IMG/VR virus record: IMGVR_UViG_3300028835_000996
Coordinates: 1-34,706 of that record
Strand: one strand, 5' to 3'
DNA length: 34,706 bases
Source of the DNA: a virus
Below the pieces are notes generated by a model. It was given only the letters and a program-made list of their open reading frames with translations, searched no databases and was not told the DNA's origin. Of this stretch, positions 4,898 through 32,487 are shown in pieces (position 1 is the first letter of the stretch; each line of letters starts with the position of its first letter). Made by a program: the position numbers and the translations under genes.

Positions 4898-4919
4898 CGC
4901 ACCTTGTGTGTGATATAAT
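4891..4919 (+). promoter_or_regulatory. Strong plus-strand sigma-70 promoter
   Basis: The -35 is TTGCCA (4891-4896), one base from TTGACA. The spacer is 17 bp and the -10 is a perfect TATAAT (4914-4919). It points opposite to every other gene in the window. A transcript starting near 4926 would carry AGGAG at 4931-4935 and the ATG at 4943. Confidence 0.8.
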
Positions 4920-8000: not shown

Positions 8001-11000
8001 AGAAGGGAAGTTAAGTGGAGGTGGAGCCCTTCTCCTGCCGCCACCTCCAGGGGGCACACCCCCGGTCGGAGGCGCTGCCCCGCCAGCAGCTATGGCCGCT
8101 CGCAATCCAGAATCATCTATGACCGGCATATCCGCTGCCCGCCACTGACGAGGAGCCATGCCGGGACCGTAGGGAGATACAGCAGTAGGGGGAGCTTGCG
8201 CTACCTCCTCTGGCATCGTGGTGGGTGCTGGCGCTTGCGTTGGAAGAGCTGCGAGTTCCTCACTCGCTCCCAGGCCGAGCGAGACCCCCGCTCTCTCAAG
8301 AACAGCCTGCTGCTCTGTGGTGAGAGCTTCGGAGATACCCGTCAGGGCTTGCTCGAATTGCTTTGGGGTTGCGCTCAGCAAGCCCTCTACACCTGGCACG
8401 TCTCTGTATCCGCGACGGCCAAAAAGCTGAAGCACTTTGCGCTTTGCCTGCCCCAATGCCGCCATTGCTCGCGCAGCGGCAGGCTGCTCTGCCAGTTCGG
8501 GCATATAGGTAGTACGGAGCTTTCCCTGGTAGTCCACATACGTGGTCTCGCCCGTCCGCTGCTTGGATTTCAGCCGAGCCATCGTGGATTGGATGGCCGG
8601 CCCACCAGCTCGCATACCAGCCAGCACGTTGCCTTCGCCCATCATCTTCAAAATTCCGGCTGGCTGCGCTCCTTCCTGCATCATGGTCTGCACTCGCTTG
8701 TGGTATTGCTGGCCACCGATCAGGAAGGCTCGCGCCTGCTCCGGTATCTCGGTCGCTCCCATCAGTGCCCCGGTCAGATGGGTCCCAATTTCGCCCCATC
8801 CACCGAGCTTCATTAGCTCGGGTCCCCACACTCCCTTCTCGCTGCGGGAGTACGGGGAGAAGACTTTGGCAAAGCCGTAGCCCCGGCCCTTGGGGGTCAT
8901 ACTGAGGCTTTCTTGCATCTCCAGGTAAGTCCTCATGCCAGGGCTGAGAGATAGTTGGTCGATAGTGCGCTGGTAGGGTCCGGCAAAGGTCTGGCGATAG
9001 GCAGACTGGGCCTCTGGCGTACCCATCATGTGGGGTAGCAGCTCGCGCCCAAGACGGTTATAGGTGCGGCCCATCATTTCTTTGGCCTCCAGGCCGCGCT
9101 GTACAGATTGAGCAAGCTGGCGCTGGCTGACTACCTGGCCTCCCTGCTCGCCGTACCAGTCCATTACGTCCTGGACGTTGCCAAACTTTTGTACCTCCTC
9201 CATCCAGGCGCGGGCCTCGTTCCATTTGGCAGTGGAGCCGAAGATTTGCTGCAATGGGCTGCCTGCGGGTGTTTCTTCTGGTGCGTGCAACATCAAATCC
9301 TCGGAGATACCCCTGATTCGGCCCAGGCCACGAGCAACGCCAGTGGTGAGCCTCTCCAGTATAGGCTTGCCTTCTGACCACTGCACCGCCCGCTGGAGCA
9401 TTCGAATCATACGGTCGGCATCCGTGTCTCCACGCTGCTCAAACGAGGTCCAGATACTGGTCATGACGCCAGCGCCGAGGCCCTCCACGTCCATGCCTCG
9501 CTTGGAGGCCATCTCTTCGGTGAACAGCCGGACGCCTGGCCGGCCAATCTGGCCCATCGGATCGGAGACGGGTCTCCGCCATCCCATGCCTTCGAGGCCC
9601 TTGAAAGGGCCTCCTTCCCTAAGCCCGGCCGCCAACTCTTGAAAGTCTTCTGGAGTGCGAGCGCCAGAAGCCCTTTCCAAAGCCAGATTTCCCCAGATCT
9701 CCTCTCCCGCAGCAAGTCCGGTATGGCCCAAAATAGGCCCCTCCCATGCTGATGTGGGGTGAGTGCCGATAACTTCGCGTTGCACCCCGGGACGGGAGAG
9801 CAGCCTCTTGCCTGCTAACCACGTCTGGCGCACGGCACCGCGCAGCCCCTCGGCTTCCACAGGTGTGCCGAACGGGTCTTGAGACATCGCGCCTGCTTCC
9901 ATCAAGCGCCGGAAGGCCGACATGAGCGGCTGCACCGTCTCTCCCATCGGTCCTGGCGCTCCTGCAAGCCGGGTTATCTGCTCGGCCCCGGGCAGCATAA
10001 GTTCGCGCTTGCCGAAAGGAACCCTGATAGGCCCTGGTGCGATCTCTCCGGCAGCCTGGGTCAGGAAGCGACCGGGCACCCTGCCGCTCTCACCCGTCCA
10101 CGAGCCTTTTAGCTCCTCTTGCCAGAGTTCGCGCCCGCGTGCCATGATGCTGCCCCAGTCCATCTCCCCCAGCCGCTGCCCGGTCACGGCCCCTCTTCGT
10201 GTCCAGGCCTGTGCCCGGAAGAGTGCAGCAAATGGCTCTCGCCTCTCTGCGCCCTCTTGCCACAGACGCTGCTCCTGTTCTGGGTGGGTCCTGCGGAGGA
10301 AAGATAGCTCCTCCGCACCGACGAAGGGATCACCTCGGAACTCACGGCGGTAGCTGGTGAGGAAGGGAGCCTCAAGTACAGGCTGCTCCTGTAGGATGCG
10401 GAAGCGACCCTCGCCACCAGGGATCATCTGGGGCCTAAAGCCCGCAGGCATCTGTTTCCAATACGGCCCGGTTTTCTCTGCCCATTCCCCTCCCTTAAAT
10501 TTTCCCAGAGCTTGCTCATGGACAGTCAGGGGAACGGTCCTCATTCCTGTATGCTCTTTTATAAACTCCTGCCCTGCTCGCATAAGGAAGGGATCATGTT
10601 CTCTAGCCTCGCCGCCCCACTCTATTCCGCCTGCTGGTAGTTCGTAGCCGGTTTTGGCAGCATAGGCGCGTGTCCACTCCTCCCCATATTGTGTTCCTAG
10701 TAGGCCAGCGTATTGCTGCCGGACGTCTTTCGCCCAGGGCAAAAGCTGTAGCGTTCCTGGCTCAATCATTTTCTCTGGATCGTAGCCAGTTCCCACAAAT
10801 GCCTTTACGCCGTGCATCTTTACAGAAGCGGTGCCGCCTCTGGGATCTTCCGACTGCCACATCTGAAATTTGTACGCTTGGGTAACTTCGGGTCGGGTCG
10901 GGCTACTATACGGGACGATTTCGGGGGGGGCTGTAAGCTCTAGCCGTTGCCAGTCGCCTACGCGCTGGGCGATGAGCCCCTGCGTGGTACGGCCTAGCTC

Positions 11001-11591
11001 AAGCTGGCCGCCTCTGGTAGCAAAGACGCCAGGGCGGGAGAGAGCGGTCACCTGGGAGCCGGGTGTGATGGGGACTTGACGAATAACGGGTTGCCCAATA
11101 GGGCCGATGCTGGAGATGGCGCCCTGCCCGGCAGGAAGGCCGTGCATGAACGCAGTGGGGATATCTGCGCCTACGGTGGGCTCGCCCCCAGCAGGACGTA
11201 GCCAGGAGGTGCGTTTAGGCCAGTAGGAGGGGAGATTGATTTCTTGCGCAGCGAGGCGGGTGCGCTTGAGGACTTTTTCTGGGCCTGTGCCTACTCGCCA
11301 GCCCCCACCCGGCTCCTGAACGTAGCCGGTGATGGCCCCCATTGTAGCCAAGGGAGTAGGGGCCTGGCCTGGTTCCCGTGCATAGAGTTCCTCTGAGCCC
11401 GGCAGTCCGCCCCATTCTTGAGCCCGCTTGTATTCGAGCCCAGCAGCCTCTGGCCCACGCATCTGGTGGGCCAGAGAAACCTTTTGATACCAGGACATGG
11501 TCTCGCGCCAGGCGTGCGGGATTTCGCCCCGGCGCTCCATGCCCTCCAGAATTATGTTGACGGTTTCGCGAGGCATTAGGGTGAGAGGCAT
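5043..11591 (-). CDS. Giant tape-measure-type protein with a possible two-barrel RNA polymerase-like N-terminal half
   Basis: This 2182-residue protein lies directly after the tail chaperone pair, the standard tape-measure position. Residues about 1216-2182 fit a tape measure: helical and Gln-rich, with a hydrophobic Gly/Ala-rich segment (about 1486-1530) and a C-terminal charged repeat (about 1890-2110) using units like WQAEDVARQDERRDIQ. Residues about 1116-1215 are a Pro/Gly-rich linker. Residues 1-1115 are atypical. They contain ASVKMHGVKAFVG (255-267), and WRRPVSDPMGQIGRPGVRLF (671-690) followed by RGDTDADRM (720-728). These resemble the beta-subunit Lys-containing barrel (KMAGRHGNKG) and the beta-prime RxP and NADFDGDQM barrel of RNA polymerases. 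The ATG follows the upstream stop after 1 nt (TAATATG). Tape-measure identity is well supported; polymerase identity is an inference from short motifs. Confidence 0.85.
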   Translation of the reverse strand: MPLTLMPRETVNIILEGMERRGEIPHAWRETMSWYQKVSLAHQMRGPEAAGLEYKRAQEWGGLPGSEELYAREPGQAPTPLATMGAITGYVQEPGGGWRVGTGPEKVLKRTRLAAQEINLPSYWPKRTSWLRPAGGEPTVGADIPTAFMHGLPAGQGAISSIGPIGQPVIRQVPITPGSQVTALSRPGVFATRGGQLELGRTTQGLIAQRVGDWQRLELTAPPEIVPYSSPTRPEVTQAYKFQMWQSEDPRGGTASVKMHGVKAFVGTGYDPEKMIEPGTLQLLPWAKDVRQQYAGLLGTQYGEEWTRAYAAKTGYELPAGGIEWGGEAREHDPFLMRAGQEFIKEHTGMRTVPLTVHEQALGKFKGGEWAEKTGPYWKQMPAGFRPQMIPGGEGRFRILQEQPVLEAPFLTSYRREFRGDPFVGAEELSFLRRTHPEQEQRLWQEGAERREPFAALFRAQAWTRRGAVTGQRLGEMDWGSIMARGRELWQEELKGSWTGESGRVPGRFLTQAAGEIAPGPIRVPFGKRELMLPGAEQITRLAGAPGPMGETVQPLMSAFRRLMEAGAMSQDPFGTPVEAEGLRGAVRQTWLAGKRLLSRPGVQREVIGTHPTSAWEGPILGHTGLAAGEEIWGNLALERASGARTPEDFQELAAGLREGGPFKGLEGMGWRRPVSDPMGQIGRPGVRLFTEEMASKRGMDVEGLGAGVMTSIWTSFEQRGDTDADRMIRMLQRAVQWSEGKPILERLTTGVARGLGRIRGISEDLMLHAPEETPAGSPLQQIFGSTAKWNEARAWMEEVQKFGNVQDVMDWYGEQGGQVVSQRQLAQSVQRGLEAKEMMGRTYNRLGRELLPHMMGTPEAQSAYRQTFAGPYQRTIDQLSLSPGMRTYLEMQESLSMTPKGRGYGFAKVFSPYSRSEKGVWGPELMKLGGWGEIGTHLTGALMGATEIPEQARAFLIGGQQYHKRVQTMMQEGAQPAGILKMMGEGNVLAGMRAGGPAIQSTMARLKSKQRTGETTYVDYQGKLRTTYMPELAEQPAAARAMAALGQAKRKVLQLFGRRGYRDVPGVEGLLSATPKQFEQALTGISEALTTEQQAVLERAGVSLGLGASEELAALPTQAPAPTTMPEEVAQAPPTAVSPYGPGMAPRQWRAADMPVIDDSGLRAAIAAGGAAPPTGGVPPGGGGRRRAPPPLNFPSGGLPVEEPSGGRRTAEYQGGLREHEHISRGPYGEASRSRWTEERFASQWHVGQLGAVESQMGRHGGGVQAATLGLAGAFTKLQKVVDEGRELRKDEAQEIRVAIKGFKTMRPMVEEWGRQAAKLAALSGSQEYGEQVSRVREGLAPLEAGVTAGRLQEREMEMRLGQMGIARGGPPAPGGIVGLAQRAWGGLGAGVKKAVGGWGMMYLNRMRSMFISPVQQAVGEYAGQQLQAQQAMYGAGLPTGITGAPIDILQSRAQMAQFRGGVGEAGWQAWGGLTGKFGGQNQPLAAGLAIGAPAMGVGLGAAYLFGGPVGWAAGLGTAAVGAAGYLGGAARDREAIGLAQAQWQRQAQGMGLIERAGQFPGWLQENWRGGMGILTQRALPWFLGQGQPGQRAEDIAYGQQIQRGDLGQLVDPEGRMAAMQYFNQQVMAPQLPGMEPAQVGGLTAAYMAMTGQQVTGQFNQQLMVQAGQRAQMLGVQPGAAFQPFQQVAGQFGYGPTAGMAEAISRYALLPQGVSEQARIGGVFAEEAGMGQVPIPQMGERERQQYLFQLQQVAPLARQAQEMLGIQFEPEAFETGGFLERLGAPEMGPTRRRLGQLLGGNQMLWSQIARTRYGKALGIPETVAPSGLRWGTEELWGLQDQMTEAQRAQRDVGLTRQQEQFRWAGEYTLGPGGTAEAPAPGGIWYLEDQMRSLQRGRQEQGFAFQQAGFEQSQRQWQESFGLGRQIFEARVGWQAEDVARQDERRDIQWDWRFEDLARTEQQFDVTSGWRREDLQRGIRFSTGRQRIEAERQLKRFNIQTEWKGEGFDIQRGRMEEQRGWGEEDFDIQKGRNEELIKLQRERFDMQQRHHDEDAKLQADRLKATVEYYQEQKQLEDERIALTRTNWERQREWQGEALTEQEAYNKLVDELMDQQKEITREQQLRVAQAQKILMFADEFLKSADEKLKKMDDYLGGEDTGGLVGLLESAISRHLGRALLLTH
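10948..10975. repeat. 28-bp exact repeat, copy 1 (inside the tape-measure gene)
   Basis: The same 28 bases occur in the same orientation at 33706-33733 within a GT2 glycosyltransferase gene, and in the same reading frame. Both copies encode IAQRVGDW. A 28-base match is not expected by chance in 35 kb. The peptide suits the start of a GT2 domain, so the copy here looks like the acquired one. Confidence 0.85.
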
Positions 11592-12687: not shown

Positions 12688-13852
12688 CGTGACACATACG
12701 GACTTCAGCATAGTCGCCGCTGGTAGGCTCCAGGACGGTGCCGATCATGGGGATGGCCAACATGCCGCCACCAGCCAGGCGTGGGCTGCCCTCCGACTGC
12801 CAGTTGACGGATGGGGCATGGACGTAGAACTGGTACGGCTGCGATGTGGTAGGAATGCTGGCTGCGCTCTCCAGGAGCAACTCGAAAGCGCTCTTGTAGA
12901 CGAGAGGCGACCATTCGATGCTGGCCCCGGTCCCAGCGTTCGCCTTAATTTGGCGGTAGAGCACGTCATCTTGCCACTTGTACATCCAGCGGATGCTCAA
13001 GCGGCGTTGTAGAACGGCGAAGTCATCGGGATGGTAATCACCGATGATCATCTCCTGCTGGGGCATGGTGGTAGCATTTGCGAAATCGAGCATTATCCCT
13101 AAGGCGGGGTACTCTGTCCCAACGCCAGTGCCGAATGGAGCGACGGTGCCCTCGTCGTGTAGCTTGAAGTGGCCTTGGGTGCTGATCGGCAGGCTATCGA
13201 AGGCATCGAAGTCGTTCCAGTTATCGAAGCTGGAATCCGCCATGATGCCCTTGCGCCCAATAAAAGCGGGCGTGGCCACCATGACACCGCTCTGAGGAAT
13301 GGCGATCCGCAGAGATGCCAGGCGGCAGTCTACGCCGATTTCCTCTATGTCCTCGCCGGCTGCCGCGCCAGGGAGATACTTCCTGACGGCCAGCCAGGGC
13401 AGAGATACAGAGTTGAGCGCTGTATCTGCACGGAACCGGAACTGGTGACTGGCCACACTGGCCACAGCGTTGCCTTCTACGTCCACCGCGCCCATGTCAG
13501 ACGCAAAGCCGGTCAGCGCGTACAGCAACAACGCGAAAGCATCCTCTAGGCGGACCTGGAGAGTCCCGCCGCCGCCGAAGAACTCACTGGCTTTGTAGGC
13601 ACCAGTGGGATAGGGGGTTCCGCCGACCTCAGCATCGGAGACCCTGGTGTCATCCACGATGCCTGCATCCACGTTCAATGCCTTGTGGCGGTACCAGGGC
13701 TCGGTGGCGTTATCCGATCCGCCTGGCTTGTACTTGTCCCACTCGGTGCTGATCCCAGCTTTGTCGCCACATTTCATGCTGATAGAGCAAACATCACTGA
13801 ATTGCAATCCCCAGCCAAAGATGCCGGTCATTGCGGTTACTGTCGAACTCAT
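12659..13852 (-). CDS. Major tail tube protein
   Basis: This 397-residue protein begins MSSTVTAMTGIFGWGLQF. The ATG at 13850-13852 forms an ATGA overlap with the upstream GT4 gene and has GGAGGTG 8 nt upstream. An in-frame start 33 nt earlier lacks this support. The pattern of beta strands with Gly/Thr/Asp-rich loops and the place just before the tail chaperones fit a siphophage tail tube protein. It is larger than the usual 150-250 residues, so it may carry an extra surface domain, possibly near residues 190-300. The call rests on gene order and length pattern, not a recognised motif. A capsid decoration protein is less likely. Confidence 0.65.
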   Translation of the reverse strand: MSSTVTAMTGIFGWGLQFSDVCSISMKCGDKAGISTEWDKYKPGGSDNATEPWYRHKALNVDAGIVDDTRVSDAEVGGTPYPTGAYKASEFFGGGGTLQVRLEDAFALLLYALTGFASDMGAVDVEGNAVASVASHQFRFRADTALNSVSLPWLAVRKYLPGAAAGEDIEEIGVDCRLASLRIAIPQSGVMVATPAFIGRKGIMADSSFDNWNDFDAFDSLPISTQGHFKLHDEGTVAPFGTGVGTEYPALGIMLDFANATTMPQQEMIIGDYHPDDFAVLQRRLSIRWMYKWQDDVLYRQIKANAGTGASIEWSPLVYKSAFELLLESAASIPTTSQPYQFYVHAPSVNWQSEGSPRLAGGGMLAIPMIGTVLEPTSGDYAEVRMCHDDVAYQWES

Positions 13853-14874
13853 AGTTGATACACCTCCTCGTACACCCGCCACCACTTTTTGGCCAGTGTA
13901 CGAATGTTTCTATGTTTTTGAACCCACCTCCTTCCCACCTGGGCCAGCTTGTGGCGCAGGCGCTCGTCTTCTACGAGTAGAAGGATTTTATCGTACCAGT
14001 CTCCTGACGCCAGAAGACCGTTGGACCTGTTGTTGACAACTCGCCTGTAGACAGGCATGTCCTGGGCAATGACGGCCGCGCCGGCTGCCATCCACTCCAG
14101 GGCCTTGACCGCCGACTTTGCCAGATTGAACTCGTCATCCGGCACGAGCGGGCACAGGCCGATGTCCACCCGGCCCAACGCCTTGGCGTAGTCGGGGTAC
14201 GGCCGTGGGCTGACAAACTCCATGTTGGGCAGGTCCTCCAGGTAATAGGGAGTGTAGCCCACCATGAGAAACCTCACATCGTCACGCTCTGCCAGCCGGA
14301 ATAGGGCATCTGTAACCAGCCTGTAGTCCTCGAAGTGAGTGCCGGTCCCGGCCAGGCCGATGGTGATCCTCTCATCGGTTTGCCGCTCTACCTTATCCCA
14401 AATGTCAAAGTTCAGCGCGTTGGGTAACACGTAGACATGCTTGTTGTGCTGCCTGAGCACCTTGGCCAGGTAGGGTGTGCTGGTAGTTAGGGCATCGCAC
14501 GCCTGTGCCACCGGGATGGCGTTCCCCTCCGTGGCCTTGCGGTGCTCATTGGTGTAATCGTCATCTGACTCATAAATAACGATCTTACCAGCTTGCTGCA
14601 AGACTTCAATGAATCTCAGGATACGCGTGTCATATTCTACCGACGCCGCCCGACACAACACAAACACGTCATACTGCGCCGGGTCCATGTGGCCCTCTGT
14701 CACCAGCTTTCTGGCAATCGGGTATGGAACGTACCCAACGGGGTAGCCTCGATCTCTGAGCACGTCGAAGGCGCTGACGATGCGGTAGTAGTCTACCGCG
14801 TTCTCCACCACTTTTGGCAAAAGCGCCAAAACATTAGGGCTTCGACGTGCCGATTTCGATCCAGATTCTCGCAT
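13849..14874 (-). CDS. GT4-type glycosyltransferase inside the structural operon
   Basis: The protein is 341 residues from the ATG at 14872-14874. Residues 12-25 (VLALLPKVVENAVD, then YYRI) match the N-terminal strand and loop of group 1 glycosyltransferases. The C-terminal half holds the GT-B nucleotide-sugar region, with IGLAGTGTHFEDY, a PDYAKALGRVDIGLCPL stretch and KSAVKALEWMAAGAAVIA, the usual acidic donor-binding helix. It probably moves a sugar from a nucleotide sugar to a glycan or protein. It lies between connector and tail tube genes, overlaps the former by 41 nt and the latter by ATGA, and so is co-expressed with virion proteins. The start is uncertain because no good ribosome binding site is seen; a TTG start near residue 14 is possible. 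Confidence 0.75.
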   Translation of the reverse strand: MRESGSKSARRSPNVLALLPKVVENAVDYYRIVSAFDVLRDRGYPVGYVPYPIARKLVTEGHMDPAQYDVFVLCRAASVEYDTRILRFIEVLQQAGKIVIYESDDDYTNEHRKATEGNAIPVAQACDALTTSTPYLAKVLRQHNKHVYVLPNALNFDIWDKVERQTDERITIGLAGTGTHFEDYRLVTDALFRLAERDDVRFLMVGYTPYYLEDLPNMEFVSPRPYPDYAKALGRVDIGLCPLVPDDEFNLAKSAVKALEWMAAGAAVIAQDMPVYRRVVNNRSNGLLASGDWYDKILLLVEDERLRHKLAQVGRRWVQKHRNIRTLAKKWWRVYEEVYQL

Positions 14875-15394
14875 TCCATATCCAATCTTTGGGCGGGCCT
14901 CCCCGCTCCAAGCATCGAGAGCGCCGCACGTACACACCCCATGCCTGCTCGCCAAACTCATCAGCCTGAGCAGCCAGGGCAGAAGTGCTCTGCTTGATAG
15001 CCGCCTCCGCGCGGCCCAGTACCAGGTGGGCTGCATCCCGCGCCTGATTGCGGTTGAGCTTCTTGGCCTTCCAGAACATCTGGAGCTCGACTGTGAATCG
15101 TCTCCACCATTGCTCCCCACCACCGACCTCGTACATGCCCATCACCTGGGCCATTCCGCCCGTCAGGAACTTGGTCAGGTCCTGGGTGATGATGGTATGT
15201 TCCCACTTTTCGGGCGCTTCTGGGTCGTTGCCGTGGACCAACGCCTGGACCACGTTCTTGGTGGGATCTTCCTGGAGGCGGCCACCACGTACCAGTACGG
15301 CGCGGGTGGGATCGTCCTCGGACACGTTGGTCTGGCAATAGGTCACCAGTTCAGTGACCAGCGTATCACACAGGATAGAGACGATGTGCGCCAT
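14834..15394 (-). CDS. Tail terminator or neck protein
   Basis: This 186-residue protein begins MAHIVSILCDTLVTELVTY. Its ATG overlaps the upstream stop (TAATG) and GGTAGGGG precedes it. The pattern, with an N-terminal helix, a central FTVELQMFWKAKK strand-helix, a helix with RAEAAIKQSTSALAAQ, and a C-terminal WIWNARIWIEIG strand, resembles tail terminator or gpU-like neck proteins that cap the tail tube. Its place between the connector and the tail tube agrees. Head-closure function is an alternative. Confidence 0.45.
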   Translation of the reverse strand: MAHIVSILCDTLVTELVTYCQTNVSEDDPTRAVLVRGGRLQEDPTKNVVQALVHGNDPEAPEKWEHTIITQDLTKFLTGGMAQVMGMYEVGGGEQWWRRFTVELQMFWKAKKLNRNQARDAAHLVLGRAEAAIKQSTSALAAQADEFGEQAWGVYVRRSRCLERGGPPKDWIWNARIWIEIGTSKP

Positions 15395-18768: not shown

Positions 18769-18848
18769 TTTGTTACCTCCTATGGCTTATTTTAGCCTAG
18801 AGTACCACCAACACGTTTTGATGGCCTCTAGACGACCAATCTTTTGAC

Positions 18849-18904
18849 GGCGATATGTCATGTATCGCCAGAGCAAGGATAGAAACCCTGCCTCTTCAAG
18901 AGGC
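18849..18904. other. Intergenic hairpins between the small basic gene and the holin gene
   Basis: The 140-bp gap at 18769-18908 holds two inverted repeats. GGCGATA and TATCGCC (18849-18869) form a 7-bp stem with a 7-nt loop. GCCTC and GAGGC (18890-18904) are followed on the plus strand by five T. Neither is followed by a T tract on the transcribed minus strand, so termination of the operon here is weak at best. A possible -10 (TAAAAT) lies upstream of the holin ribosome binding site, but no convincing -35 is seen. Confidence 0.35.
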
Positions 18905-18908
18905 TTTT

Positions 18909-19199
18909 TCATTTGCTCTTCATTCCGGTTTTGCGCTGTCTGTCGGCTGCATGAGCTCGCTTGATGGCGGCTTTACAGGGGCCGCAGTTATTGGTATTGG
19001 CCCAACGTGAGGCTTTGGCCAGCACAGCCGCAGCCGATACACCCTTGCCGTGATGACGGAGCCTGACGGCTGCAAGACAACTCTTCTGGTCGAAGATGGG
19101 GAACTTGCCTTTCTTGCCCCCGCCCTTCATGCCTGATTTCTTGCGTGCTTTGGCCGTCACAGTGCCTTTGCCAGTTCTCATTCCGGCAGATTTAGCCAT
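18909..19199 (-). CDS. Small basic protein between portal and holin
   Basis: This 96-residue protein is chosen from the ATG at 19197-19199. It begins MAKSAGMRTGKGTVTAKARK and is strongly Lys/Arg-rich, with QKSCLAAVRLRHHGKG near residues 43-58 and NTNNCGPCKAAIKRAH near 70-85. The Cys, His-His and Cys-x-x-Cys positions could bind a metal ion. An upstream in-frame start would give 135 residues but overlaps the portal gene. A nucleic-acid-binding or head-internal role is suggested by charge and place only. Confidence 0.6.
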   Translation of the reverse strand: MAKSAGMRTGKGTVTAKARKKSGMKGGGKKGKFPIFDQKSCLAAVRLRHHGKGVSAAAVLAKASRWANTNNCGPCKAAIKRAHAADRQRKTGMKSK

Positions 19200-19204
19200 A
19201 TTAT

Positions 19205-20755
19205 CTACTCTACAAGTCCTTCGGCCTCGGGAGTCTCCACATCGGTCCTGGCTCCTTCCTCCAGGCCGGTCTCCTCTGCTGCTATTGCACCAAGGCTGGC
19301 AAGATACTCCTGCCACTCCTTGATCTTTTCTATTTCGGCCTGGATGTCGTCAATGTCTCCCAGATTTTGAATGGCAGTCTCAGGTGCTCTCAACTTGGCC
19401 TGAACCAAGAGAACGCACTCGCTGACCAGTTGCTCTCGGTCACGTGGGATGATGGGAGCCCACTTCGTGGTGAGCTCGTAATCCAACCACTTTTCTTCGA
19501 CCCCGCCACCCTTGACCAGCCCGATGATCATGGCCTTGCGATTCATGCTCGCAAAGGAGGCCGACCACATACCCCTGGTATCTCTCACGAAAGAGGTGAG
19601 AGACCACATTCGGAAGGCCAGGGTCAGCGCCGATCTCTGGGAGCCTTCGTCAACTCCATATGCCACCGGTGGCGTATGGGAAACCTGCCGAAAATCCTCC
19701 TTGAGCCCGCTCAAAAACTCGCTAGTGCCGATAGGCAGGCCGGGGTGGGGCACGAAATCAACAGTAGGCTCCGGTTGATTTGGAGCATTGCGCCCCAGGT
19801 TCTTGATAGAGAACCTGGAGAGCTTGACCTCCTTGACGTTGGGAGGGAGGTTCTTGGCATACCGTTGGGGATGAACACCATCGTTGATGGCATCCCCCAC
19901 GTCGGCGTCCCTGGCGTTGTACTCGTCTTGCAAACCCATCAGTTGCTTGATGATGGATGTCCCGTAGAATTGGCCGGTGCGATCTACAGGAAAATACTCG
20001 AAGGGGATGATGCCTTTTCCTGTGCGTGGATCTATAAATGGGTTAGGACCGCCATACGGCGTGCCGTCCGGCGCGCGGGCCGGCTGGTCGCCAATGGTGA
20101 TCTCGAACGTGGTCTCCGTCCACCGCTCTTTGTAAAGTACGCTTTCTCCGGCCGAGGCGCTGGGCCGGTAGCCATATTTCAGTTGCGCCTCGCGGGTCGA
20201 GATGGTATAGCCAACCTCGACCTCCAAGAGATGGTGGTAATCCGTCGAGTCCCAGACCGGAAAGAAGTAGTCCGGGAGGATCACCTCCATTCTGACTTTG
20301 TTGCGCTTCTCAGGATCGTAGGCCAGTTTGAAGACACAGCCCCCGCAAACGTAGGCAATCCTGGCTTGCTCGGGCAGGAGGCCCATCGCGCTATTCTCGG
20401 CCCACACGTCGGTCAGCCAATCGTCAATGGCCTCTGCCACGCGGTCGCTTTTGCGTTGCGGCTTGGCGTGGAAATCCACTACGCTCGATTCGCCGTATTC
20501 TCCGAGGAGGGCGAAGGCATGTTTTTGGATCGCCAGCTTCGCCAGGTTGATCTGGAGCGGGAATTTCTTCAGCGGATCGCCGCTCTCGGTGGTGCCGGAC
20601 TCGCAATTCTCGTCCAGGATATCGCCCTCGTAATACTGCCAATACAGGGAGTACTCCGCGGTCTTTTGGGACCACAGAGAATTAGGGTAATACTCCGGCT
20701 CTCCTGGAGTCCGTTGTGGGATGTCCGCAACCTCGGATGCTTTGAGTTTCGCCAT
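19205..20755 (-). CDS. Portal protein
   Basis: This 516-residue protein has the layout of SPP1 gp6-like portals: an N-terminal helical region with LQINLAKLAIQKHAFALLGE, a clip/wing with strands (GGCVFKLAYDPEKRNKVRME), and a stem and crown with YGTSIIKQLMGLQDEYNARD, SGLKEDFRQVSHTPPVAYG and SQRSALTLAFRMWSL. It forms the dodecameric DNA gate of the capsid. The ATG at 20753-20755 has only a weak ribosome binding site (TAGG) and lies 18 nt downstream, on the transcript, of an intrinsic terminator, suggesting regulated read-through. Confidence 0.8.
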   Translation of the reverse strand: MAKLKASEVADIPQRTPGEPEYYPNSLWSQKTAEYSLYWQYYEGDILDENCESGTTESGDPLKKFPLQINLAKLAIQKHAFALLGEYGESSVVDFHAKPQRKSDRVAEAIDDWLTDVWAENSAMGLLPEQARIAYVCGGCVFKLAYDPEKRNKVRMEVILPDYFFPVWDSTDYHHLLEVEVGYTISTREAQLKYGYRPSASAGESVLYKERWTETTFEITIGDQPARAPDGTPYGGPNPFIDPRTGKGIIPFEYFPVDRTGQFYGTSIIKQLMGLQDEYNARDADVGDAINDGVHPQRYAKNLPPNVKEVKLSRFSIKNLGRNAPNQPEPTVDFVPHPGLPIGTSEFLSGLKEDFRQVSHTPPVAYGVDEGSQRSALTLAFRMWSLTSFVRDTRGMWSASFASMNRKAMIIGLVKGGGVEEKWLDYELTTKWAPIIPRDREQLVSECVLLVQAKLRAPETAIQNLGDIDDIQAEIEKIKEWQEYLASLGAIAAEETGLEEGARTDVETPEAEGLVE

Positions 20756-20765
20756 TTTTGCCTAC

Positions 20766-20803
20766 AAAAAAGCAAAGCCCCGGTGAATGATCACCGGGGC
20801 TTT
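20766..20803 (-). terminator. Intrinsic terminator or attenuator just before the portal gene
   Basis: Perfect 13-bp arms (20774-20786 and 20791-20803), with the GC-rich core GCCCCGG, surround a 4-nt loop. On the minus strand they are followed by GC and then six T (20771 to 20766). The start codon of the portal gene is only 10 nt past the T run. The plus strand lacks a T tract after the stem, so direction is clear. Confidence 0.8.
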
Positions 20804-20884
20804 CGCTCAGGAGGGAAGGAAAGAGATGGAAGCGCGGGTGTGCGCGATAATGGCTTGGGCAGCGCTAGGCGGGCCAGGCCAGGT

Positions 20885-20998
20885 CTATTTCTTCTTTTTC
20901 AAAAAAGGGAACTCGGCCTCAAACAGGCCGATTGCCTGTTTGAAGATGCGATACAGGATTCGAATGAGTTTGATTGTGAGCGTAACGTCTTCATCCAT
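20885..20998 (-). CDS. Possible 37-codon leader ORF
   Basis: The ORF begins MDEDVTLTIKLIRILYRIFK and ends FPFLKKKK. Its ATG lies directly after the -10 box of the promoter at 20999-21027, so a transcript from that promoter would start within or just past the ATG. It has no ribosome binding site. It could be a leader peptide, or be translated from longer transcripts coming from the terminase gene. Low confidence. Confidence 0.25.
   Translation of the reverse strand: MDEDVTLTIKLIRILYRIFKQAIGLFEAEFPFLKKKK
20901..20942 (-). promoter_or_regulatory. Mutually exclusive leader hairpins
   Basis: On the minus strand a 9-bp stem (CAAACAGGC with GCCTGTTTG, 20920-20942) overlaps a 6-bp stem (CGGCCT with AGGCCG, 20914-20930). 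The second is followed after 7 nt by six T (20906-20901). Only one can form at a time, like an antiterminator and terminator pair. Inference from sequence only. Confidence 0.35.
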
Positions 20999-21027
20999 AT
21001 TTTAGCACAAATGTTCTTGGGTGTCAA
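20999..21027 (-). promoter_or_regulatory. Strong sigma-70 promoter for the structural operon
   Basis: The -35 is a perfect TTGACA (21022-21027), the spacer is 17 bp, and the -10 is TAAAAT (20999-21004). It begins 22 bp past the terminase stop codon on the minus strand and drives a leader of about 240 nt to the portal gene. Confidence 0.8.
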
Positions 21028-21049
21028 GTACCCTGTCTACAGTGTAGAA

Positions 21050-22570
21050 TTACCTGTTTCTCCCCATACGCTCTGGCTCCCTGGCGTTCCTGGATTGAGA
21101 GAGAGATATTTCGTCTTCCTCATCCAGGTTGGCAGTGTCCCAGAGCTTGCGGCGCAGCCAGCCGGCCGTCATCATAAGGACCGACGTGATGTCCTGCCGG
21201 ATGCGGGTATCCGGCAGCTTGTAGTGGGTGAGTTGGTGCGTGATCCCTTTGATACGGGGAAAACGGAACATGATCTTGCCTAGCATGATCTTGAGGTGAT
21301 TAATCATGAGCCTTTTCTCTCCCTGGAGATTCATCCCCTCTGCCAGCAGGCCCTCGGTTGTAAAGGCCAACTCGTCAAAAGCCTTCTGCATACCCGTGCT
21401 GTCGAAGGCGCATTGGCCGTGTGCCTTGTACAGTTGCACGAGGCGCTGAAACTCATCCAGGAATGGCCCGTAGAGGCCGCCGCCGAAGACCCAGCGGAAG
21501 CAACGCAGGTACGCAGGCTGGGCCGGAAAGCCAGTCACGTCCCAGACCATGATCACCGGCGAGTTTCGGTGGGGCGGATCGTTCTGGCCCGGGTCGCCGA
21601 TGACGATGTACTGGCGGCCTTTCTCCGCTGGCATCTCCCACCAGACACACCCACACTTGGGTGCTTCTTGATAGACGAAGCCCTTGCGCTTTTCCCGGAT
21701 GGCCCTCTCCATGATCTCATTGAGAGCCGAGTCAACACACGGCTCAATCATGGTCCAGGGAAAGTGCTCGCCCTTGCCAACCGGTCTTTTGCCCTCAAGC
21801 CACTGCTGGATGAGTTCTGGAGTACCACCAGCCCGGCGCTCCAGGTTTTTCAGGTCTCTCTCTGACAAGTAGATGTTGTCTCGATACGAAATCGTCAGAG
21901 ACAGATAATCTTCCGGGAACGCCTCGGCTTGATCATATCTATCCCAAAGCTCTGGGCTGTCGCCAGCGTTGGCCAAGACCGTCAGGCGGCCCAATCGGGG
22001 CTCTCCATTTGGCCGACGTCCCCGCAATCGGGAGCCAAGGTTGCGAATGGTCTCATCCAGGTCATCCACATCTTCTCCCTGGTCGAGGATAACCTGGTCA
22101 CCCTCCCACGTTTTGATACGTGCTGCCTGCTCATCCGCGCTCATGAACTCCATAGTGGAGCCATTGTGGAAGGTTATTTTGGGATAGGGCCGGTATACGG
22201 TCTTTTTGACAAACCGCTCGGCCCTGCTCCCCGGCAGTCGATCCACGATGTATTCATACATCTGGAGCGACTGCCAGCCTACAGGTGCAGCTTCCAGAAA
22301 CTTAAAGAGAGGCGTCGTGGCGCAGAAAGCAAAGCCCGATATGGCTAATCCCGCCGTTTTCCCCGAGCCAAAACCACCGACAATTGTTTGCTCTGGCTCA
22401 GAGCCGTGATGCACCCTGAGCGCCCAAGGCAGAAATTGCCATCCCTTGATGACAGTGCTGTCATCAAGTTGGCTTACACAGTTCTGGAAATAAAACGCCG
22501 TAAAGACGCTGCCATTTTGAGCGGCCTGCTCGAAAATGGCTAGGTCGCCCTCGGTCAGTCGGTAGGCCAT
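21050..22570 (-). CDS. terL: Terminase large subunit
   Basis: This 506-residue protein has the two domains of a DNA-packaging motor. The ATPase part shows Walker A GGFGSGKT (65-72), a Walker B-like VILDQGED (160-167) and a coupling motif LTVLANAG (196-203). The nuclease part shows VIGDPGQ (Asp326), CAFDSTG (Asp390) and RQDITSVLMM (Asp460), fitting the RNase H-like acidic triad. It cuts and packages concatemeric DNA through the portal. In Walker B the usual Asp-Glu pair is Asp-Gln, with Glu166 two residues further. No ribosome binding site is visible before the ATG. No small terminase subunit gene was identified. Confidence 0.9.
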   Translation of the reverse strand: MAYRLTEGDLAIFEQAAQNGSVFTAFYFQNCVSQLDDSTVIKGWQFLPWALRVHHGSEPEQTIVGGFGSGKTAGLAISGFAFCATTPLFKFLEAAPVGWQSLQMYEYIVDRLPGSRAERFVKKTVYRPYPKITFHNGSTMEFMSADEQAARIKTWEGDQVILDQGEDVDDLDETIRNLGSRLRGRRPNGEPRLGRLTVLANAGDSPELWDRYDQAEAFPEDYLSLTISYRDNIYLSERDLKNLERRAGGTPELIQQWLEGKRPVGKGEHFPWTMIEPCVDSALNEIMERAIREKRKGFVYQEAPKCGCVWWEMPAEKGRQYIVIGDPGQNDPPHRNSPVIMVWDVTGFPAQPAYLRCFRWVFGGGLYGPFLDEFQRLVQLYKAHGQCAFDSTGMQKAFDELAFTTEGLLAEGMNLQGEKRLMINHLKIMLGKIMFRFPRIKGITHQLTHYKLPDTRIRQDITSVLMMTAGWLRRKLWDTANLDEEDEISLSQSRNAREPERMGRNR

Positions 22571-24806: not shown

Positions 24807-25034
24807 CTACGATAGCAACTTAGCTTGTATTGCCTCTCTGATCCTGAGGTTGGCCTTGAGTGGGAAGACCTTCCCACATACGTTGACGATATGCGTCTGT
24901 ACCAAGGCCAGGCTAATGCGCAACTTCTGTGCGGCCTCCTCATTGGTGTATCCTTTCGAGAGGAGGCGCAACACTCTGCGCTCTATTGGTGTAAGTGGTA
25001 CAAGTACCATTTTGCATGTCGCCATCGCCCTCAT
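24807..25034 (-). CDS. LuxR/GerE-type helix-turn-helix regulator, DNA-binding domain only
   Basis: This 75-residue protein is nearly all HTH: LTPIERRVLRLLSKGYTNEE (14-33), AAQKLRISLALVQTHIVNVC (34-53) and a last helix (LRIREAIQAKLLS). The LT-x-x-E-x-x-VL-x-L-x-x-G pattern and a V-x-x-H recognition helix are hallmarks of the family. There is no receiver or autoinducer domain. It probably binds DNA as a dimer. A perfect 34-bp palindrome at 25073-25106 lies 39 nt upstream and is a natural candidate site. Start choice is uncertain: ATG codons at 25034, 25025 and 25010 are all possible, with weak ribosome binding sites. Confidence 0.75.
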   Translation of the reverse strand: MRAMATCKMVLVPLTPIERRVLRLLSKGYTNEEAAQKLRISLALVQTHIVNVCGKVFPLKANLRIREAIQAKLLS

Positions 25035-25072
25035 CCCGGTGGGGCAGGGGGGCTGTTCTACTGTAGATCAGC

Positions 25073-25106
25073 CATGCTTTGCACAAGTGTTGTTGTGCAA
25101 AGCATG
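25073..25106. promoter_or_regulatory. Perfect 14-bp inverted repeat upstream of the LuxR-type gene
   Basis: CATGCTTTGCACAA (25073-25086) and TTGTGCAAAGCATG (25093-25106) are exactly complementary, separated by 6 nt. No T tract follows on either strand, so an intrinsic terminator is unlikely. The length and place suggest an operator for the LuxR-type protein, or a structured RNA. Confidence 0.6.
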
Positions 25107-26300: not shown

Positions 26301-27086
26301 CTACGTTGTAGAACTGCTCCCAAAGTTGTAGAACTGCTTCCAATCTCGGGGGAGCTCCACGCCATAAGTCAGGCGCATCTTCTCTTCCATGTATCTACGG
26401 ATGGTCGGCTGATTGGCGTTTGCGCTGTCTACCATCGAGCCGGTCTTGTGGCGACGATACAAAAACCAATACTTGTAGTGGCCCATGTGGACGGCGGCTT
26501 TCGGATCACCGCCCCTCACCCCTAGCAGGGCCTCCATGTTGAACAGGTAATCTTCCCAGCCGCCAAGTTTCTTCATGTGAGCATCGTAGCCATGCTCGTT
26601 GCGGGCCTTGACCTGCTCCCACGCCTCTCTGCGCCACATGGAGGCGCAGACGATGTAATTCATACGGGCCAGGGTAGCTGGGTCGTAGTCCGGCTGTGCC
26701 CAGGTGCGGGTCTCGAACCCAAACAGTTGAGCATCTGGATACGCCACCCACGCCGCTGGATTCTCGGCCAGGGCCTGTAGCCCTAGCGCGACGTAGCCAG
26801 GCGCTACCATGTCGTCGTCGTCGAGGCACACGACTACTTCGATGCCGTCAAGGACGATGTAGCCGGTGTTGCGGGCCTCCGATAGACCGCGATTCTCAGG
26901 CTGCCGGACGTACTCAATCCCACTGATGTGATCGCAGATGTCTGCAATCAACCTTCCGTTGGGCGCATGATCGTCTATCACCACAATCCGGTCTGGTGGC
27001 CTGGTCTGGTTTACCAGGCTTTCCAAGCACTCCGGTAGATATTCTACGTGGCTGTAGCAGGGAACGACTACGCCGACTGAGAACAT
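26301..27086 (-). CDS. GT2 family glycosyltransferase
   Basis: This 261-residue GT-A fold enzyme begins MFSVGVVVPCYSHVEYLPEC, with AAGGAG about 9 nt upstream. It has RIVVIDDHAPNG (donor uracil/ribose strand), PENRGLSEARNTG, and VVCLDDDDMV carrying the DxD metal motif (about residues 88-93). GGWEDYLFNMEALL (about 190) has the position of the catalytic base and acceptor loop. It likely transfers a sugar from a nucleotide sugar. It overlaps the epimerase gene by 19 nt. The very 3' end has a 20-bp duplication that changed the last residues. Confidence 0.85.
   Translation of the reverse strand: MFSVGVVVPCYSHVEYLPECLESLVNQTRPPDRIVVIDDHAPNGRLIADICDHISGIEYVRQPENRGLSEARNTGYIVLDGIEVVVCLDDDDMVAPGYVALGLQALAENPAAWVAYPDAQLFGFETRTWAQPDYDPATLARMNYIVCASMWRREAWEQVKARNEHGYDAHMKKLGGWEDYLFNMEALLGVRGGDPKAAVHMGHYKYWFLYRRHKTGSMVDSANANQPTIRRYMEEKMRLTYGVELPRDWKQFYNFGSSSTT
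26305..26344. repeat. Short tandem duplication at the 3' end of a GT2 gene
   Basis: Two 20-bp copies (26305-26324 and 26325-26344) share GTTGTAGAACTGCT and differ at a few of the last bases. The second copy is read in another frame in the protein (FYN versus SSSTT), suggesting slippage that extended the C-terminus. Confidence 0.6.
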
Positions 27087-28030
27087 TCTACTTGCTCCTT
27101 AACCCACTTGTAGGTAGCTGCCAGGCCCGCCTCCAGGGAAGTCTGAGGCTCATAGTGCAACACCTCACGCATCCGCGTGAGATCGGTGCCTCTGTACCGC
27201 TCCCCGGTAGAGCCATGAGCGGAAACCTTCTCGATTTCCACTCCGGCGATGCGGGCAATCTTGTCCGCAAGTTCGTTTATGGTGATTAGGCGGTCAGACC
27301 CAATGTTGAGCGGCTGGTGGTAGTCTGAGCGCATCAGGCGATGTATCATTTCAACGGCATCGTCTATGTAGCAGAAAGTTCGCGTTTGACCCCCATCCCC
27401 CCAGATTTCCACCCGGGGATCGCCAGTCAGCTCAGCGATTGCTATCTTTCTGCAGAGCGCTGGAATTACCTTCTCTCGGCCACCGTCCCATGCACACCAG
27501 GGACCGTAGATTGTATGGAGGCGGCCTATTCTGACATTCTCTCGAAGCTCAAGAGGAAGCATGATCTCAGCAAAGAGTTTCTCCCATCCGTAGGCATGTT
27601 CGGGATCGGCCGGGAAAGCGTCTTCCTCTCTCAGTGACGCGGTCTCTGGATTGGTCTTTAGCTGTTTTGGGTATACACAGACCGATGAGGGGAAGAAATA
27701 CCTGCGAATCTTATTCTCACTGGCAGCCCAGGCTGTCACCAGGTTGATCATGGCATTGTTCCAGAATACCGTTGCCGGGTACGCTGAAATGTGGCCTACT
27801 CCACCGTGATCGGCGGCCAGGGCATAGATCTCTTCCATATCCCGGGTAGCACTCAGGGCATGGTACTCGACCCTCATGTCACACGTCCAGCTTGCCTCAT
27901 CAGCCACGCTTTTGCGCAGTGGAGACCTAACGTCTACCGCTCGGACCCAGTAGCCACGCTCCTTTAAGTAGCGTACCAGGTGGTCGCCAATGAACCCTGC
28001 GCCACCAGTTACTAAGACCCTAGTGCCCAT
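27068..28030 (-). CDS. NAD-dependent sugar epimerase, GDP-mannose 3,5-epimerase-like
   Basis: This 320-residue short-chain dehydrogenase/reductase has the Rossmann motif GGAGFIG (9-15), a serine pair FFPSS (112-116), and catalytic Tyr147/Lys151 in AYGWEKL. Blocks such as FPADPEHAYGWEK, IYGPWCAWDGGREK, IWGDGGQTRTF and QPLNIGSD closely follow the GDP-mannose 3,5-epimerase pattern. The reaction would convert GDP-mannose to GDP-L-galactose or an epimer; related UDP-sugar epimerases cannot be excluded. GGGAGG precedes the ATG. It supplies activated sugar for the neighbouring transferases. Confidence 0.8.
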   Translation of the reverse strand: MGTRVLVTGGAGFIGDHLVRYLKERGYWVRAVDVRSPLRKSVADEASWTCDMRVEYHALSATRDMEEIYALAADHGGVGHISAYPATVFWNNAMINLVTAWAASENKIRRYFFPSSVCVYPKQLKTNPETASLREEDAFPADPEHAYGWEKLFAEIMLPLELRENVRIGRLHTIYGPWCAWDGGREKVIPALCRKIAIAELTGDPRVEIWGDGGQTRTFCYIDDAVEMIHRLMRSDYHQPLNIGSDRLITINELADKIARIAGVEIEKVSAHGSTGERYRGTDLTRMREVLHYEPQTSLEAGLAATYKWVKEQVECSQSA

Positions 28031-28917
28031 GTGAAAACCTCCCGTAAGCGGTTTGCGAAAGTGTGCTCTTTGATAGTTCGCCTATGGCCTGCAAGGGCGA
28101 TGGCCTCTCGCTCCTCATCGTGGTCAAGGAAATACTCAGCTTTCTCAATCATCTCTTCGATGGAAGAAAAGCTGACGTACTCGATTCCTGACTCCAGGTG
28201 GCCACTCAGGTAGTTTGGCTTCTCGGCCAGCAGAAGCCCTCCACAAGCTGCCACCTCGAAATCGCGCAGCTTGGCTTGCGGCACACCGGCCATATCTTTG
28301 CTAAAGGACACGCCGATTTTGGCTCGCCCCAACAGGCGTATGTACTCATTCCAGGTCACCGGGCCACCTGGGAAATTCCAGCCGCGCACGATGGCTCTAT
28401 CGCCAAAGTTCTCCTGGAGAGCCGCTATGTGGTCTCTCCGGTAGGCAGAGTTCTGGCCGATCCATACGATGTCCAAATCCTTCTGATGACCTGGAACGTG
28501 GAAATCCGGGTTGCAGGCCCAGGTCGAGAGCAGGAACGGCTTGCCTGCGGCAGTGGCCATCGCTGCCGTCTTCTCATCCGTTCCTACTACATGGCTGTAC
28601 TTCTGTATCTCTTGCCGAACGTAATCGGCTCGATAGCTATCGCAAATCCAGCCCACGGTGGGGCAGTCCAGGCTGCCCATCGTGCCTGGCTGCCACTCGT
28701 CCCTGACCGGGGCAGTAAAGACCACATCCGGCTTGAACCGCCTCACTGTGTCCAGAAACATCCGGTTGAGCGTCCGATTGTCAATGCCTGGCCTATCCAT
28801 CTGGAAGAGTCGGGCATTACCCAGCTCCTGGCAGGCCGGCCAGAAGGTGTGATACTCCAGGCTCCTCATGGATTTGTCGTAGTACATATCTACGAAGATA
28901 GCGCAGAGGATTCTCAT
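28012..28917 (-). CDS. CgeB-like GT-B glycosyltransferase
   Basis: The protein is 301 residues from ATG 28915-28917, which overlaps the upstream stop (TAATG) and has AGGAG before it. The N-terminal half has FKPDVVFTAPVRDEW and TVGWICDSY. The C-terminal half has DIVWIGQNSAYRRDHI, KIGVSFSKDMAGVPQAKLRD, FEVAACGGLLLAEK and a final helix with HRRTIKEHTFANRL. This fits group-1 (CgeB or spore-maturation type) transferases. A sugar acceptor cannot be named. It belongs to the glycan operon. Confidence 0.75.
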   Translation of the reverse strand: MRILCAIFVDMYYDKSMRSLEYHTFWPACQELGNARLFQMDRPGIDNRTLNRMFLDTVRRFKPDVVFTAPVRDEWQPGTMGSLDCPTVGWICDSYRADYVRQEIQKYSHVVGTDEKTAAMATAAGKPFLLSTWACNPDFHVPGHQKDLDIVWIGQNSAYRRDHIAALQENFGDRAIVRGWNFPGGPVTWNEYIRLLGRAKIGVSFSKDMAGVPQAKLRDFEVAACGGLLLAEKPNYLSGHLESGIEYVSFSSIEEMIEKAEYFLDHDEEREAIALAGHRRTIKEHTFANRLREVFTWALGS

Positions 28918-30257
28918 TAGGCTCTCCTTTTTAGAGCCGCCTGTTTGCAAGCCTCACTGCAAGCCTCAGACTCGGCTACATCCCGCCACCATCGGCTGTC
29001 CTTGTGATCCTCCCATCCCAGAAGAGGCTCATCAATGTAGCCTACCTCCCCCTGCTCAGTCCCCCTGAGCATCATATCCCAGTCGGGGCAGAGTTCAAAT
29101 TCAGGCAAAATCTTCCTGGCCACCTCAGTGCGCCAGGCCGCCAGCATGGTGCCTGGCGGCTGGGCTATAGAGTTCTCATGGGTGATTGGGGCCTTTCTGA
29201 TCACCGTGCCTGTCGGCTTCATGTCCACGTACTGAGCGAAGGCACAGTGGACGCCGACCTGGCCCGGGTGGCCGTCCAGGTAGTTGATCATCTGCCTGAC
29301 GTAATCGGGCAGAGGGAAATTATCGGCGTCGATGACGGCGCAGTAAGCCGTCTCGACCACCTTGAGCCCTTTGGCAATCGTATCGCAGGTGCCCCTGTTC
29401 TTGCGGGACAGCTTGACGGTGATGTTCTCGTACCGTTGCCAATCTCTGAGAGTGCTCTGCAGTGGCTTCTCTGAGGCGTCATCTACGATGATCAACTGCC
29501 AGTTAGGACAGGTCTGGTGGTACATAGCTTCGATCAAGCGAGGGAGGTACTGGGGGTAGTTATGAGAAGGCACGACGAGGGTAAGTTCGTTAGTGCGCTT
29601 ACCGCTGGCTCTCTCTCTAAGAGCACTATGGAAAACCGGATTGCCTCTGGTGCGGACAACCGAATCGGGGTACATATAGTAGTCCCCCACCGGCGTCTCG
29701 CCGCCCCGTTCTACGTGTAGATTGGCGTAGAACGCCCGGAGCTGCCAGTCCCAGTCCCAGTAGACCCGACACCGCTCATCGTAGAGGCCGATCTTGTCAA
29801 AGGCTTCCTTCCTGATGACGGTCCCCAAATTGGGAGCACAGTCCCCGGCGACGAGCGGCGCTTCCTGCCAGGGGAACGTCTCCATCGTGGGCCCGTCCGG
29901 CACGTTGATGGGGAAATAGATCATGTCGGCCTGGCTGCGCTCCATTGCCTGCACCTTCAATTCCAGGTTATTGGGGTAAGCCACGTCGTCATCGTCCAGA
30001 AACGTAATCAAATCTGCGCTGGCCAACGCTATGCCAGCGTTAGCGGTCCGTGGTTGATCCTGGTGCTCTCTTTCGATTTCCCGAATCGTTGCGCCAGGTG
30101 GGACGTCCCCGTAATCAACGGCAATCGGCTCCCCACCGTCGTTGACGATGATCAATTCCCAATTTTGGAGTGTTTGAGCAAGGATCGAGGATACGGCACG
30201 CTGTAGGCGCTGTGGGCGGTTGTAGGTACACATGATGACCGAGATTTTACTTAGCAT
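28917..30257 (-). CDS. Two-domain GT2 glycosyltransferase
   Basis: The protein is 446 residues from ATG 30255-30257, with AGGAGG 7 nt upstream; an earlier in-frame start overlapping the methyltransferase gene is rejected. Two GT-A domains lie in tandem. Domain 1 (about 1-215) has KISVIMCTYNRPQRLQRAV, WELIIVNDGG, and DLITFLDDDDV. Domain 2 (about 220-446) has LTLVVPSHNYPQYLPRLIEA, WQLIIVDDASEK, SRKNRGTCDTIAKG and YCAVIDADN (DxD-like). Tandem domains occur in enzymes that build repeating or alternating glycans, as in hyaluronan or chondroitin synthases. The first domain resembles the 26301-27086 transferase. Confidence 0.85.
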   Translation of the reverse strand: MLSKISVIMCTYNRPQRLQRAVSSILAQTLQNWELIIVNDGGEPIAVDYGDVPPGATIREIEREHQDQPRTANAGIALASADLITFLDDDDVAYPNNLELKVQAMERSQADMIYFPINVPDGPTMETFPWQEAPLVAGDCAPNLGTVIRKEAFDKIGLYDERCRVYWDWDWQLRAFYANLHVERGGETPVGDYYMYPDSVVRTRGNPVFHSALRERASGKRTNELTLVVPSHNYPQYLPRLIEAMYHQTCPNWQLIIVDDASEKPLQSTLRDWQRYENITVKLSRKNRGTCDTIAKGLKVVETAYCAVIDADNFPLPDYVRQMINYLDGHPGQVGVHCAFAQYVDMKPTGTVIRKAPITHENSIAQPPGTMLAAWRTEVARKILPEFELCPDWDMMLRGTEQGEVGYIDEPLLGWEDHKDSRWWRDVAESEACSEACKQAALKRRA

Positions 30258-30885
30258 CCTTAGCCTCCTTTTTGATTCTGACGACCCCCAGGAGGAAACT
30301 CCTGTGCTCCTCGACCACCTCCTCAAGGGGAAGGATACGCGCATCGAGGCGGCGCTGGCAGTACCAGTCAACCACTCGATCCGGCGCTATCAGATCCGTG
30401 AATGACTCGTCGTATAGCCCAAAGGCGCGATGAAACTGCTTACCAGCTACGGTGGCCAATTCCTTCCAGGGAGTGGAAAAGATTAGCAGCTTCGACTTGC
30501 GCTGCAGGTGTGCAAACGCAGCCTGCCAGTCTACGATGTGCTCGATTGTCTCCAAGCTGGTAATCGCATCGGCGGCGGGCGCTTCCATGATGTCCAAGCA
30601 AATGTACTTAATGCCAAATCCTGTGGTATACAACGCTTGACAGTGGGCTATGGCTGCCTCATCGTGGTCCAGACCGATGACCTCTTTGTCGGGGTGGTTT
30701 CGCTTCAGGATCTCTGTCCCATATCCCAGACCGCAAGCTGCGTCTAAGATGGACTTGATCTTGTATATGGCCTGGAACTCACCAATCTTGTCCGCGGTGA
30801 AGAAATACCGCGCAATGTGTAAAAGACACTCTGTCCTGTGGCCGTAGGCCAGAGCATCCATTCTTTCTTGGTTAGTCCACACCAT
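30247..30885 (-). CDS. Class I SAM-dependent methyltransferase
   Basis: This 212-residue protein contains ILDAACGLGYGTEILKR (motif I), VIGLDHDEAAIAHCQ (acidic end of strand 2), and ITSLETIEHIVDWQAAF (motif IV region). GAGGGG precedes the ATG. It overlaps the preceding gene by 14 nt. It probably methylates a sugar or other small acceptor in the glycan pathway; the substrate is not evident. The fold assignment is strong. Confidence 0.8.
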   Translation of the reverse strand: MVWTNQERMDALAYGHRTECLLHIARYFFTADKIGEFQAIYKIKSILDAACGLGYGTEILKRNHPDKEVIGLDHDEAAIAHCQALYTTGFGIKYICLDIMEAPAADAITSLETIEHIVDWQAAFAHLQRKSKLLIFSTPWKELATVAGKQFHRAFGLYDESFTDLIAPDRVVDWYCQRRLDARILPLEEVVEEHRSFLLGVVRIKKEAKDAK

Positions 30886-31858: not shown

Positions 31859-32487
31859 CTCCTTGTTGCCCTCACACAAAAGTAGAATTGCTTTTTAGTT
31901 ATTGCCGTTGGAGCATGGAACTCCACGACAAACCCTGCATCCCAAATCACGTCAACCAACTCCTGCGGGCCGATAGCTGAGATATGGCACGAGCTATCGA
32001 GTTCCACACCGCATCGCACATCGACCCCAATCAAGAGCAGCCCGCCGCGCCTGGTGAGCCGGGCAAATTCACCGATCATGGCTTTCCAGTCATCGGTGTG
32101 GTCGAGGACATTGACGCACCAGATGACATCGAAAGGCCCATCCTGCACATCGTAGACCTCGCAACACCGATATTCGGTATTGCCGACCTGCCCCTGGCGG
32201 GCAAAGGTGGGGACGGCCTCACAGAAGGCGTCTAAGAGCGGATCTACCGCAACGACCTCCAGATTCTCCCTTCCTTCGTGCATACTGACGGCAGAGCTCC
32301 CTACATCGAGGAGCCTGCCCTCAATACCATCAAGATCAAACTGCGAGAGGCGTTCCTGCCCCCTTTGCAGTTGCCCGGCCACAAACTGCTCACGATCCTG
32401 GGGAATCATGCCCAGATACGACTTCCAGAACTTTAGCTCAGCTTCCTGGGCCAAGTCCCAGGCACTACCATGTCGCGTAGATGTCAT
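31855..32487 (-). CDS. Class I SAM-dependent methyltransferase
   Basis: This 210-residue protein has RLLDVGSSAVSMHEG (motif I, slightly divergent), LEVVAVDPLLDAF, FDVIWCVNVLDHTDDW and LTRRGGLLLIGVD, the pattern of Methyltransf_11-type enzymes. Its start lies 23 nt inside the preceding gene and GGGGGAAAG precedes it. A glycan-pathway methyl transfer is inferred from neighbours. Confidence 0.8.
   Translation of the reverse strand: MTSTRHGSAWDLAQEAELKFWKSYLGMIPQDREQFVAGQLQRGQERLSQFDLDGIEGRLLDVGSSAVSMHEGRENLEVVAVDPLLDAFCEAVPTFARQGQVGNTEYRCCEVYDVQDGPFDVIWCVNVLDHTDDWKAMIGEFARLTRRGGLLLIGVDVRCGVELDSSCHISAIGPQELVDVIWDAGFVVEFHAPTAITKKQFYFCVRATRR

Follow-up and report, generated by a model that had tools for sequence, protein, structure and literature searches.

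A sigma-70-type promoter match and a strong terminator hairpin between terminase and portal genes: a possible gate on the structural operon of a virus

In phage lambda, Q lets RNA polymerase past a terminator located upstream of the late genes (PMC4825925), and the qut site lies within pR′ (PMC6266700). In SPP1, stem-loop terminators are found between late gene clusters that have no further recognisable late promoters, with an unidentified early factor being needed, and moron ORFs 3–5 occupy the terminase–portal junction (PMC6316719). Terminators are also positioned immediately upstream of the first genes in AlpA-controlled Pseudomonas operons (PMC7969949). In addition, four putative terminators are annotated within the structural gene region of HK97 (NC_002167), each followed after 5–13 nt by a start codon, and the terminase–portal junction of D3 contains a 54-codon ORF.

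The locus compared with these systems is the 294-nt gap between the terminase and portal genes of an uncultivated phage, in a 34.7-kb virus record which was analysed over its whole length (34,706 nt, hereafter ‘the window’) and whose recognisable genes are all on the minus strand, in one direction. From upstream to downstream, the features are:

21050–22570, minus strand: terminase large subunit gene (TerL-like; phrog_2, E 2e-11), the upstream neighbour
21036–21048, no strand assigned: dyad TCTACACTGTAGA, a possible operator, just upstream of the −35 (from sequence)
20999–21027, minus strand: predicted sigma-70-type promoter TTGACA-17-TAAAAT with extended −10 (consensus match; start at about 20992 from spacing)
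20885–20998, minus strand: 37-codon ORF MDEDVTLTIKLIRILYRIFKQAIGLFEAEFPFLKKKK with coding-like codon use, its ATG directly past the −10 and with no Shine-Dalgarno sequence
20919–20943, minus strand: 10-bp leader hairpin TCAAACAGGC-AATCG-GCCTGTTTGA (from a sequence scan)
20766–20803, minus strand: predicted intrinsic terminator, a 13-bp GC-rich hairpin (20803–20774) followed by T6 (20771–20766; from sequence, folding and simulation)
19205–20755, minus strand: SPP1-type portal gene (PF05133, 65.6 bits; phrog_64), the first structural gene past the terminator

Past the portal gene, the order is small ORFs, a holin-like gene, a putative scaffold gene, an N4-gp56-like capsid gene and an SU10-type adaptor gene. 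The ATG of a 41-codon ORF (18787–18912) overlaps the stop (ATGA) of a small basic protein gene (18909–19199), which suggests that its translation is coupled to that of the preceding gene. Elsewhere in the virion gene region, a 2182-residue protein (5043–11591) matches none in PHROG, Pfam or NCBIfam. A series of glycosyltransferase, epimerase and methyltransferase genes spans 26301–33797, and these, together with a glycosyltransferase gene within the structural region (13849–15123), possibly form a glycan modification set. No close relatives of TerL, the portal, the capsid, the adaptor, the 2182-residue protein, the glycosyltransferase or a 95-residue protein were found among viral contigs, genomes and phages; the nearest reached were lactococcal-type portals, at ~25% identity.

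The initial annotation placed a strong promoter right after the terminase gene, and a match was indeed present there on the minus strand, beginning 22 nt past the terminase stop and composed of TTGACA (21027–21022), a 17-nt spacer and TAAAAT (21004–20999), with TG one base upstream of the −10. It agrees with 11 of the 12 bases of the sigma-70 consensus, which may not be that of the host. Based on first-order Markov simulation (dinucleotide content) of the window, 11/12 promoters are expected at 0.14 per window and those with TG at 0.023 (both strands); the match is thus far better than chance. No second extended −10 promoter at 11/12 was found on the coding strand of the window, and the sole other one is on the plus strand (4891–4919), largely inside another gap. 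The predicted promoter may be active in the host. Separately, the gap before a tail-fibre-like gene (870–969) contains two long dyads (TGTGACAAAATTGTCACA, CATGAAACTGTAATGTTTCATG) plus TTGGAA-17-TATAAT with an extended −10, and looks like a controlled promoter.

The second element of that annotation, a 13-bp GC-rich hairpin plus T6 ahead of the portal gene, was likewise recovered, and it is the top terminator-like site of the window on either strand. Its arms (20803–20791 and 20786–20774) form 13 of 13 perfect pairs around a 4-nt loop, with GC preceding the T6, and the hairpin alone folds at −24.7 kcal mol−1. In simulated sequence, perfect stems of at least 12 bp arose at 0.03 per strand, while a 10-bp stem plus T5 was seen in 0 of 30 simulated windows. 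The simple terminator rules used missed lambda tR′, the positive control, thus failed scans elsewhere mean little. It is a predicted terminator that may work in the host. The measured spacing to the portal ATG (at 20755; Shine-Dalgarno weak, TAGG) was 18 nt from the hairpin end, exactly as first described, and 10 nt from the end of the T-run; as also argued there, only these 18 nt separate hairpin from ATG, with no space for a further promoter. With both elements functional in the host, read-through would be necessary, since no promoter fits in between.

The preferred explanation, given roughly even chances of being correct, is that the terminator gates entry to the structural operon, in an arrangement like that of the late promoter region of lambda. 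Under such a gate, host RNA polymerase would start near 20992 and make an RNA of ~227 nt that mostly ends at 20766, while portal, capsid and tail genes would be made by polymerases passing the terminator, having either begun at the 20992 promoter or arrived through the terminase gene. Passage would be raised in infection by an antitermination factor, or would be plain leak behind a strong promoter. The earlier expectation that expression depends on read-through or antitermination thus stands for the crossing of the terminator by portal transcripts, provided that host RNA polymerase makes them, whereas a dedicated antiterminator is not supported so far; simple leakiness or read-through from upstream is a possible source of portal expression.

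An antiterminator gene search had been proposed along with the promoter and the hairpin, and it recognised no known type: scans of the proteins tested against PHROG, Pfam and NCBIfam revealed no Q- or N-type antiterminator, in a record that may be an incomplete fragment and has many unassigned proteins. The gene directly upstream of the promoter is TerL and not Q-like. RNA-only attenuation was rejected, as the leader has no strong competitor of the terminator: the best leader fold that avoids the terminator is −56.5 kcal mol−1, versus −77.4 kcal mol−1 with it, thus no obvious RNA-only antiterminator competes.

The predicted terminated leader (from ~20992 to 20766, ~227 nt) was part of the first description, yet that description omitted the 37-codon ORF and its strong coding signature. 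Under a codon model built from 22 of the window's genes, this ORF scored 0.218 per codon, exceeding all 1514 stop-free wrong-frame stretches of equal length as well as 91% of stretches from true genes. Among ATG ORFs of 30–50 codons, the remaining 86 scored far below it (next best, 0.082), and none of ~5400 stop-free dinucleotide shuffles matched its score. The homologue search found no known relative. Two further ORFs were rejected as genes on codon score, which was poor for a plus-strand 59-codon ORF (20826–21005) and very poor for a 31-codon ORF starting from the ATG at 20994.

The ATG of the 37-codon ORF starts one base past the −10 hexamer and falls at about −6 to −4 relative to the predicted start of transcription, thus RNA of that promoter cannot encode it. 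Either the ORF depends on transcripts arriving from terminase, or the element is not a genuine promoter. Both elements were kept because each exceeds chance, and translation of the ORF from transcripts entering via the terminase gene is more likely than a false promoter. This need for upstream transcripts suggests that structural mRNA does not have to originate mainly from this promoter. The label of structural operon promoter, as originally given, is so far not supported in the sense of the main structural promoter, as opposed to the promoter of a small inserted unit.

The position of this ATG also bears on whether the hairpin does no more than end the terminase operon, with the promoter match being fortuitous or inactive and the structural genes served by a phage-encoded polymerase or another terminator-blind factor. 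A coding-looking ORF whose start falls within the promoter region argues against the promoter, and the promoter rules of the host may differ; however, a promoter match of this quality seldom arises by chance, it falls within the gap and is on the coding strand, and the window contains no recognised RNA polymerase gene. This explanation is judged improbable.

Alternatively, and as the main rival to the gate, promoter, 37-codon ORF and terminator may together represent a moron-type insert between terminase and portal genes, with the structural genes served mainly from further upstream; the terminator would then close the insert and be tolerated through leak or late antitermination. The gap has a lower GC content than the phage (49%, and 41% in its promoter and ORF half, versus 57.7% for the window), and among distant portal relatives whose junction is readable (~25% portal identity) the terminase–portal distance is 0–14 nt and the insert is absent; the gap thus looks like a moron-type insert, although absence in relatives of only ~25% identity is weak evidence. 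The coding appearance of the ORF and the small ORFs at the same junction in SPP1 (ORFs 3–5, PMC6316719) and D3 (54 codons) point the same way. However, the promoter cannot drive the insert's own gene, whose ATG is upstream of the predicted start, and an alternative upstream −35/−10 (TAGACA-16-GAACAT) matches at 8/12 only. Such an insert is a possible but rather doubtful explanation, and it shares one prediction with the terminator gate: structural transcripts read through the terminator.

Within the leader, the 10-bp hairpin overlaps a 7-bp hairpin (20931–20913), the two being mutually exclusive, and the hexamer CACAAT, near +15 to +20, agrees with a −10-like pause element at 4 of 6 positions, a level that chance gives easily. 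A discrete RNA is delimited by the promoter and the terminator, and there are phage small RNAs, such as IsrK (PMC4825925), that arise from termination beside read-through transcripts, so that the ~227-nt RNA might itself be the product, with a function in trans or in packaging and a separate source of transcripts for the portal genes. Yet the leader minus the terminator shows folding little better than that of shuffles (z −1.8), an Rfam search returned no match, and the coding signature favours a protein, leaving a small RNA quite unlikely. One specific version, an anti-Shine-Dalgarno RNA acting through the CCUCC tract of the leader, was rejected, with 14 strong pairings to phage gene starts versus 15.2 for shuffled tracts.

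The dyad just upstream of the −35 is one of nine TCTAC-N(0–8)-GTAGA sites in the window, versus ~1 expected from half-site counts:

187, 13970, 15761, 21036, 22646, 25057, 26300, 29710 and 32990: TCTAC-N(0–8)-GTAGA sites

This motif was spotted by inspection and afterwards ranked against all 5-mers. Six of the sites are wholly within the 22 tested genes, for which synonymous shuffles gave a mean of 0.2 and a maximum of 2. The excess is found in the convergent orientation only and is absent in 12 control loci. Since the spacing varies, a simple operator does not fit. The window also harbours a stand-alone LuxR/GerE-type helix-turn-helix (HTH) gene (24807–25034; PF00196, 34.9 bits). Upstream of it (25057–25106) are two dyads, TCTACAGTAGA and a perfect 14-bp one, CATGCTTTGCACAA/TTGTGCAAAGCATG, and the gene is possibly autoregulated. 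A new form of antitermination, in which a regulator such as this HTH protein would bind the TCTAC…GTAGA dyad ahead of the 20992 promoter and let polymerase pass the terminator by a route unlike Q or N, is conceivable but highly improbable.

The terminator-gated entry can be set against the known systems. It resembles lambda pR′–6S RNA–tR′ in having a strong sigma-70-type promoter, a short terminated RNA and then late genes, the 6S RNA of lambda being ~200 nt; of the features of the Q-type arrangement, a sigma-70-type promoter ahead of late genes and a terminator ~227 nt downstream were recognised here from sequence. In contrast to lambda, no Q gene is seen and no qut site was identified, the promoter follows TerL instead of Q, and the genes behind the terminator are portal and capsid genes rather than lysis genes first.

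With HK97, the locus shares GC-rich hairpins, mostly with T-runs, closely before structural start codons, yet those hairpins are weaker (−12.6 to −17.1 versus −24.7 kcal mol−1 here), and HK97 has no promoter annotated beside them and no such hairpin between TerL and portal. SPP1 is alike in its portal family, in having small moron ORFs at the TerL–portal junction and in terminators between genes that have no recognisable late promoter nearby; its ORFs 3–5, however, are larger, have mostly good Shine-Dalgarno sites and sit in the operon with no promoter of their own. The AlpA operons of Pseudomonas aeruginosa have a promoter and then an intrinsic terminator directly before the first gene, which is overcome by an antiterminator that loads at the promoter, but they are host operons, and no AlpA-like protein was recognised here.

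If active, the locus would be a case of a phage lineage without close known relatives that gates its virion genes by transcription termination, like lambda, and would offer a compact promoter–terminator cassette for seeking a new antiterminator; otherwise, it is a further example of the known late-operon design. While the mechanism is putative, every part of the design has precedents in lambda, HK97, SPP1 and D3.
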